A DNA stretch of 51,493 bases from Singulisphaera sp. GP187. GTDB lineage: Bacteria > Planctomycetota > Planctomycetia > Gemmatales > Gemmataceae. A program made the translations under genes and the position numbers. Positions 17,757 to 19,080 of the stretch are shown here, piece by piece. Location: assembly GCA_945905925.1 (NCBI GenBank), contig CAMDQN010000034.1:1-51493 (forward strand), given 5' to 3'. Under the pieces are notes generated by a model. That model was not told the DNA's origin and did no database searches. It was given only the letters and a program-made list of their open reading frames with translations. The first letter of the stretch is position 1. The number at the start of each line of letters is the position of its first letter.

Positions 17757-17868
17757 GACCTACCCCCGGCCCCTGCAGGGAGGGGAGAAATAGTGGGCGC
17801 ATCGTCGAATGCAAACGGAGAGTGAATGGTTTTCTCCCCTCCCTGCAGGGAGGGGTTGGGGGTGGGTC
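17757..17868. repeat. Inverted repeat with palindromic CCCTGCAGGG cores
   Basis: The left arm 17757-17790 and right arm 17831-17868 are imperfect complements. Each contains a CCCTGCAGGGAGGGG core that is itself partly palindromic, so several alternative hairpins are possible. It starts immediately after the dehydrogenase stop codon and probably ends its transcript. Confidence 0.8.
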
Positions 17869-17988
17869 TTCTTCGCCACCGGTAACGCTCGTGTAACGCG
17901 GCAATCCTTGGCGCGTGTGGCGCCGTCGTTCTTCCGGTAGTATCACATTATCGGGTGCGCCCGCCCGATCCACTCGCGGAGGTGTTCC

Positions 17989-18948
17989 ATGCGTTACATG
18001 ATGCTCGGTGCGGCGGTCGCACTGATAGCGGCGCCGCTGAGCGCGAACCCAACGACCTGCGGGCACGGCACCAAGCTCGACTTCGTGGACAGCCCGAAGG
18101 AAGCCGCGGCGCTCGCGAAGAAGGAGCAGAAGCTCGTGCTTGTGCTTCACGTGTCCGGTCACTTCGAAGACCCGGGTCTGACCTGAAACAACGCCGAAGC
18201 GCTCCGTGTGGGCGCCCTGAACAACGCGGAAGTCGGTAAGTACTGCAACGAATACTTCGTGTCGTCGTACCAGAAGGTCGCGACCTTCAAGATCGTGGGC
18301 AACCAGAAGCAGGGTGGGAACGTGGCCGCGTACTTCTGTGCGCCGGACGGTCGCGTGCTGCACTGCGTCGCGGGTCCGGTGGACGCGCAGACGTTCCTCC
18401 GCGAAGCGAAGTGGGTGGTGGAAACCACGAAGACCTGCATGAAGGACAGCGTTGGCAAGGACGGGAAGATGGACGGGGCCAAGTTCAAGGAGCAGTTCCG
18501 CAAGGCTCACGCCGAGAAACTGCGCCAGGACTTCGGCATCGTGGTCGAAGCCGTGACCTACGACCCACCGGAGCCGATGGGCGAGAACGACGCGCTGACC
18601 TACCGCGACCCGACCGGCCGACCGCTCGCGCCGAAACTTCCGCCGCCGCCGATCAACGGCCCGGACGTGACGATCAGCGACAAGAAGTTCGAGGCGATGC
18701 AGAAGGAAGCCGCCGCCGCACCGGGCAACCGCTACGCCGCTTGCGGGAAGGGGGGCCGCGTGGTGGTCACCAACCAGAGTCTCGTTCACCAGATCATGGC
18801 CGCACACTCGATGGTTCCGATCGAGCGCGTGTACGGGACGGTGTTCGAGAACATTCTTGGGGAGAAGATCTCCACGAAGCCGGTGGACGTGGTGAAGCCG
18901 TTCACGTGGGTGGACAAGGACGGCAACCGACTCCGCCCGGAGAAGTAA
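17989..18948 (+). CDS. Secreted thioredoxin-like protein with in-frame TGA (selenoprotein candidate)
   Basis: The frame opens at an ATG after GGAGGTGTTCC, has a signal peptide (about residues 1-19, MRYMMLGAAVALIAAPLSA) and meets TGA at 18184-18186 (codon 66). The same frame then continues without another stop to 18948, 319 residues in all. Before the TGA is KLVLVLHVSGHFEDPGLT, and after it NNAEALRVGALNNAEVGKYC, then GNVAAYFCAPDGRVLHCVAG. The beta-strand followed by a reactive position resembles thioredoxin-like folds. A stem-loop starts 12 bases after the TGA. I favour selenocysteine at residue 66. The alternative is a recent nonsense mutation of a Cys or Trp codon. Standard gene finding would split it into a 65-residue piece and a piece starting near 18208. 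Confidence 0.65.
18199..18215 (+). promoter_or_regulatory. Possible bacterial SECIS stem-loop
   Basis: GCGCTC (18199-18204) can pair with GGGCGC (18210-18215) around the five-base loop CGTGT. The stem begins 12 bases after the TGA and the first loop G is 20 bases after it. Known bacterial SECIS elements lie just downstream of the UGA with a short apical loop containing GU, so position and loop fit. Short GC-rich stems occur by chance in such DNA. Confidence 0.4.
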
Positions 18949-18957
18949 CCAAAAGGG

Positions 18958-19080
18958 AGAAAGCAGAACTAACCACAGAGACACAGAGACACAGAGAAAA
19001 CCCGAGAGAAAGAGTGTTTTGAAGAACTCCTTTCTTGTTTTCTCTGTGGCTCTGTGTCTCTGTGGTTAGCTCTGCTTTCT
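18958..19080. repeat. 43-bp inverted repeat (ACACAGAG words)
   Basis: Arms 18958-19000 and 19038-19080 match at 41 of 43 positions. The words are built on CACAGAGACACAGAG. It lies between two genes read in the same direction, and translation of its right arm would add a spurious hydrophobic extension to the next gene. Confidence 0.92.

Follow-up and report, generated by a model that had tools for sequence, protein, structure and literature searches.

A gene in the 51,493-nucleotide stretch of planctomycete DNA analysed here (Singulisphaera sp. GP187; hereafter the window) is interrupted by one in-frame TGA, which raises the question of whether this codon terminates translation or is read as selenocysteine (Sec). 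The frame runs from ATG 17989 to the TGA at codon 66 and on through 253 sense codons to TAA 18946-18948, and besides the codon-66 TGA there is no stop ahead of this TAA and no frameshift. The initial annotation had proposed, from the letters alone, a selenocysteine codon in an otherwise intact gene with a good ribosome-binding site, and its description of the frame holds (Table 1). A standard listing of open reading frames splits the same gene into a 65-aa and a 246-aa fragment, the second of which starts at GTG 18208. Judged from sequence comparison and structure modelling, the gene very probably represents a real and new selenoprotein family with relatives in planctomycete bacteria.

Table 1. 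Coordinates of the predicted selenoprotein gene and its local features in the window.
Feature	Position	Strand	Basis
Predicted selenoprotein gene, 319 residues (TAA included in the span)	17989..18948	+	Full length kept in relatives; purifying selection on both sides of the TGA
Ribosome-binding site GGAGGT	17978..17983	+	5 bases ahead of the ATG; direct reading
Probable signal peptide, ~19 residues	17989..18045	+	Judged by eye
Thioredoxin-fold domain, residues 28-151	18070..18441	+	AlphaFold2 model and VIA-align 2 match to 3f9u_A, Z 9.0
In-frame TGA, predicted Sec66	18184..18186	+	Invariant in 29/29 aligned relatives and 44/44 named loci
Probable SECIS hairpin GCGCTC / GGGCGC, loop CGTGT	18199..18215	+	Consensus fold and covariation in type I relatives
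Cys117 codon; conserved residue, candidate for the second redox site	18337..18339	+	Invariant among the 29 sequences of alignment A1; at least 90% in alignment A2

The strongest indication comes from the relatives. The window protein is matched in 24 of 59 genomes, its own genome counted, and among 29 aligned relatives (alignment A1) the TGA column is invariant together with T65, N67, N68 and A69, which form a TUNNA motif. Cys117 is not universal: L121, L085 and L086 carry either Leu or Met there. A profile search across 397 genomes of the class found matches in 66 of them, and a manual count over the listed rows of this search gave TGA in 95 of the 98 matches that span the motif (94 with exactly one and one with two); TGA is the only stop listed among these 98. 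The three exceptions carry Ser (L045), Ala preceded by Cys (L080) and Cys (L081), the last being a member of a distant sister type, type III, outside the window's subfamily. Contigs were also scanned with two peptide patterns, one with the Sec codon read as Cys, an approach that detects pattern-bearing sequences only: 87 stretches matched and 44 were confirmed as relatives, every one with TGA. These 44 loci overlap the genomes of the class-wide search and are therefore not independent of the 95/98 count.

The initial annotation had expected Cys or TGA at this column among homologues and had named varied residues, or a re-reading of the codon as TGC or TGG, as evidence to the contrary. The column does not vary among the 29 aligned relatives or the 44 loci, and a re-reading finds no support in relatives that share the TGA; a sequencing error is very unlikely because they carry it too. 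The expectation of Cys fared differently, since no Cys homologue appeared within the window's own TUNNA subfamily in either the 397-genome profile search or the 44 scan loci, whereas Cys does stand at the aligned Sec column in sister type III relatives.

Type I, to which the window protein belongs, comprises two forms, namely a secreted one of ~320 aa (that of the window protein) and one held by a hydrophobic N-terminal anchor followed by a proline-rich stretch, both judged by eye; an anchored example is found in the window's own genome (C13:28174-28653). Gemmata sp. IIL30 (HG799477.1, L143) bears such an anchored paralogue and is the only apparent isolate, rather than a metagenome-assembled genome, among the 44 loci, so that a labelling test looks feasible. 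One anchored paralogue lies in two halves ~40 kb apart (G007:C1 4082592-4123616; L024 and L049), and directly after its N-terminal half follows a frame that by eye resembles a large serine recombinase; an element has probably integrated into this selenoprotein gene.

Codon selection extends past the TGA. In seven of seven pairwise comparisons, dN/dS on its 3' side lies at 0.10-0.24, two of these values being rough because dS is saturated (> 1.8), and purifying selection is seen on both sides of the TGA. Such low ratios indicate that the downstream part is translated in the window's frame and selected.

A bacterial Sec codon would be expected to be followed by a SECIS-like hairpin, and the initial annotation had pointed to a GC stem with a GU-containing loop 12 bases past the TGA. 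This stem is present where described (arms 18199-18204 and 18210-18215, loop 18205-18209), but taken by itself its stability is ordinary (z -0.17; equalled or exceeded by 78 of 200 shuffles), and over a 54-base stretch a competing fold is preferred. The case for this putative element is comparative and comes from the relatives, not from the window's sequence. We assembled 73 distinct TGA-centred segments (53 of type I, 11 of type II and 9 of type III), from which 51, 11 and 9 distinct 48-base stretches were analysed. Consensus stems begin 13, 17 and 18 bases past the TGA in types I, II and III, with the loops CGUGU (41/51), AGGU (7/11) and CGUGUU (7/9), respectively. Under controls that ignore kinship among the sequences, the consensus energies of -3.36, -10.79 and -8.12 lie beyond every one of the 300 synonymous recodings made for each type, while stricter within-column permutation attained the observed energy in 5, 17 and 13 of 300 controls. 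Mean single-sequence energy over 48 bases is weaker in type I than in its recoded controls (-11.75 vs -13.53). In all 51 type I stretches, codons +5 and +9 pair through their third bases without a break (GC 40, GU 2, AU 3, UA 3, CG 3), whereas the neighbouring stem pair is unpaired in 28 of the 51, and Arg codon +7 is CGT in 48/51 compared with 54 of 718 Arg codons elsewhere in the same genes. Among the other TGA motif types, a hairpin of the expected kind was recognised by eye in 14 of 17 segments, one of which (L178) is of type III. Rfam at gathering scores gave no match in the whole window.

The genes that the initial annotation had named as a check on its proposal are all encoded in the window's own genome (G000): SelA scores 555.6 bits, SelB about 365 bits (364.8; 365.4 joined) and SelD 387 bits, and the tRNA-Sec scores 69.5 bits and is called tRNA-SeC with anticodon tca (UCA) by ARAGORN. 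Across the class, 60 of the 66 genomes that have a family match carry SelA above cut-off, compared with 148 of the 331 others (208/397 overall), a raw manual count that ignores kinship. Of the six matched genomes without SelA above cut-off (G018, G034, G152, G235, G266 and G330), five have a tRNA-Sec of 70-75 bits. The gene is also present in G034, where SelB scores 340.1 bits, no SelA was found and the tRNA-Sec match reaches only 44.4 bits, below the cut-off. Two genomes with neither a SelA nor a family match (G028 and G030) score only 49.2 and 46.8 bits with the tRNA-Sec model. These scores have to be read with the model's cross-matching of other tRNAs in mind: two further matches in G000 are tRNA-Ser by ARAGORN, and all 14 control genomes are matched, five of them above cut-off.

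The protein was also modelled as one chain. AlphaFold2 with 41 aligned sequences gave a mean pLDDT of 74.1 and a pTM of 0.75, with low confidence around the motif (block mean pLDDT 52 for residues 61-70). The match of residues 28-151 to 3f9u_A (rmsd 2.4, 105 aligned) is followed in VIA-align 2 by 3ira (Z 8.4) and 2lst (Z 8.3), with DsbD gamma at about Z 6, and a sequence profile of the wider group placed 3ira, 2kuc and 2lst first against the PDB; the best Foldseek E-value is only 6.4e-3. The thioredoxin-like fold that had been suggested from sequence is thereby borne out in the model. So is the placement of the TGA at the reactive residue: in alignment A5, L163 and L177 have the first Cys of their CxxC at the Sec column. 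UNNA replaces CxxC in the window protein, which lacks the classical active site; where the second Cys would stand, this protein has Ala, and none of the 27 TGA-bearing rows of A5 has Cys. Domain libraries returned little, the sole Pfam match being EpmC at 11.8 bits (cut-off 23.8), with no match to Thioredoxin_7 at E up to 1 and none in a viral fold library at E <= 0.001.

The conserved TGA, the codon selection after it, the conserved hairpin, the Sec machinery and the thioredoxin-like model constitute the computed support against which other readings have to be weighed. If the TGA were a true stop, the locus would be a pseudogene or an assembly error, and its rendering by standard gene calling as pieces of 65 and 246 aa fits that; this is nevertheless very improbable given a TGA shared by 29/29 aligned relatives and 44/44 named loci, purifying selection on the part after it, and a set of 98 motif-spanning matches whose listed stops are all TGA. 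Two proteins might instead be made, a secreted peptide of 65 residues and another product with its own start further on, for instance at GTG 18208, where the 246-codon frame opens. We give this scant credence: that GTG lies inside the conserved hairpin loop, the split would sever the modelled thioredoxin fold at its active-site region, the frame and the flanking TUNNA motif are invariant, and the same arrangement is retained in the anchored paralogues. TGA readthrough is a generally known phenomenon, and a residue such as Trp could in principle be inserted without any selenium. Several relatives (L004, L008, L010 and others), however, end the same gene with TGA, which therefore still stops translation; with a complete Sec machinery in the genome, and with Cys rather than Trp at the column in sister-type relatives and in CxxC thioredoxins, readthrough of this kind is most unlikely. 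A pseudogene, an assembly error, a separate downstream gene and Trp readthrough were accordingly set aside on the conserved TGA, selection, fold, machinery and TGA gene ends.

We regard the overall explanation, an exported thioredoxin-fold selenoprotein with UGA read as Sec, as close to certain, and incorporation of Sec at codon 66 itself as almost sure. By the established SelA/SelB/SelD pathway, a ribosome reaching this UGA would meet SelB with Sec-tRNA(UCA) bound to the hairpin 12 bases downstream, so that Sec would be put in place of termination and a full-length protein made. Its export through the signal peptide is highly likely, the N-terminus being hydrophobic by eye. Sec66 would then take the place of the first Cys of CxxC, the attacking residue of thioredoxins, with Ala in place of the second; its selenolate might attack a peroxide or a disulfide, after which the intermediate might be resolved by Cys117 or by an external thiol. 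This scheme of a one-selenol oxidoreductase or peroxidase is tentative, with chances somewhat short of even. A different use of an inserted Sec would be to bind a metal or a selenium or sulfur compound without redox chemistry. The missing second Cys of CxxC speaks for such a role, as does the Cys directly before Sec (CU) in several related families, a motif also found in some published metal-handling selenoproteins (Table 1 of PMC13188914, in the portion covered here). Against it, redox chemistry would be favoured both by the modelled thioredoxin fold, in which Sec occupies the attacking position, and by the wide conservation of Cys117, and we consider a binding role rather unlikely. Conserved gene neighbours were tried as a clue to function and dropped: among 45 loci compared, no neighbour is common to the whole family; with names assigned by eye, a cluster of enoyl-CoA-hydratase-like frames recurs in 7 loci, a serpin-like frame in 8 and a 2-hydroxyacid dehydrogenase in 4.

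Several known families share features with the window protein. Glutathione peroxidases and peroxiredoxins have a thioredoxin fold in which a single Sec or Cys stands where a helix begins, and peroxiredoxins have a Thr near it. The selenoproteins of both groups nevertheless differ from the window protein in their motifs, and their profiles in Pfam and NCBIfam do not match it; the motif given for peroxiredoxin selenoproteins is TxxU (PMC13188914, portion covered). The VPGUxxT family (NF041382 / NF041383; OS_HP5 in PMC13188914) likewise consists of thioredoxin-like predicted selenoproteins but has VPGU in place of TUNNA, and NF041199 (Trx7/PDZ domain-containing (seleno)protein) has a Thioredoxin_7-like domain with Sec or Cys and, in the same portion of that review, the listed motif CxxU. 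Neither matches the window protein, and a search of NCBIfam 20.0 at E up to 1 gave no match, whether with this protein or with the L028 and L087 domain stretches. Related types resemble these profiles only weakly, at 11-22 bits for types such as L093, L164 and L166 against NF041382 / NF041383 (cut-offs 350 and 275) and at 11-15 bits for L093, L166, L175 and L176 against NF041199 (cut-off 300), so that none exceeds 22 bits where the curated cut-offs are 275-350. Thioredoxin_7 (PF13899), DsbH/DUF255 (PF03190) and the C-terminal domain of DsbD have a fold like that of the window protein (matches 3f9u_A, 3ira and DsbD gamma) but carry CxxC where it has UNNA; thioredoxin-type Pfam scores of the related types are sub-threshold, with L175 at the 27-bit cut-off.

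The window protein's group is apparently a large, undescribed one in planctomycete bacteria. A May 2026 review (PMC13188914) lists 119 families or subfamilies, some credited to Haft and Tolstoy 2025, and the TUNNA motif was not found among them in the portion covered; in the main texts available for PMC13188914, PMC12013277, PMC9312934 and PMC5029168, the string "planctomyc" does not occur. PMC4807772, as far as covered, describes Sec genes from Gemmata obscuriglobus and Isosphaera pallida, and its selenoprotein listing is confined to strains P1 and P2. No description of the family was found in the literature searched, which consisted largely of openly accessible journal articles. Selenoprotein finders rely on Cys homologues, and the authors of deep-Sep state, in the part of PMC12013277 covered, that their method may miss selenoproteins without them, while all known ones now seem to have them. 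A family without a Cys form in its own subfamily could thus be discarded by such filters and enter annotation as a pair of broken fragments, which would leave the use of selenium in planctomycetes under-counted.

The wider group is diverse. When the profiles of the window family and type III were compared, Sec aligned with Sec at a probability of 98.9. A search with type III also gave matches lacking TGA; of 20 regions taken from these, 19 have Cys in the Sec column, within SCANSR, and the remaining one (L163) is a CxxC thioredoxin. Further TGA-bearing types have the motifs GRCUGGA/GRCUNGA/GRAUGGA, GCTUNNG/SCVUNNG/GCAUNNA, FSUMGSN/HCULAGH and similar, SCUPSG/SCUGTG, and KLUSAGH. Matches occur in 49 of 294 genomes of the phylum, with 89 rows listed; by a manual count that sets aside one of these rows, which holds the window sequence in a wrong frame, exactly one TGA is present in 75 and none in 13. 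Twenty of these regions yielded 21 matches, with TGA at the aligned place in 15, Cys in 4 (SCANSR), CxxC in 1 and Asp in 1 (L199, which also bears a TGA copy). A broad profile run over the 59 genomes gave, among the matches listed, several TGA-bearing copies in single genomes (e.g., G029, G022 and G036) along with many ordinary thioredoxins without TGA. On balance, we lean towards the view that exported thioredoxin-fold proteins with a single selenol have undergone an unrecognised radiation in planctomycetes, with at least 7 motif types and, in some lineages, several such proteins in one genome.

Some minor features accompany these genes. Two TGA-bearing thioredoxin-like genes stand in tandem at each of the loci L167 and L169. 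Residues 255-300 of the window protein (about 18751-18888; VH...AAH...VYGTVFENILGEKISTKPV) form a stretch found again in anchored paralogues, and the ends of type III proteins resemble this C-terminal stretch by eye, which may point to a second shared domain. The gene itself is flanked by inverted repeats, one on its 5' side at 17771-17850 with perfect 20-base arms (CCCTGCAGGGAGGGGAGAAA) and one directly 3' of it at 18958-19080, with 51-base arms that are 90% complementary, 21 bases between them and CACAGAGACACAGAG repeats.
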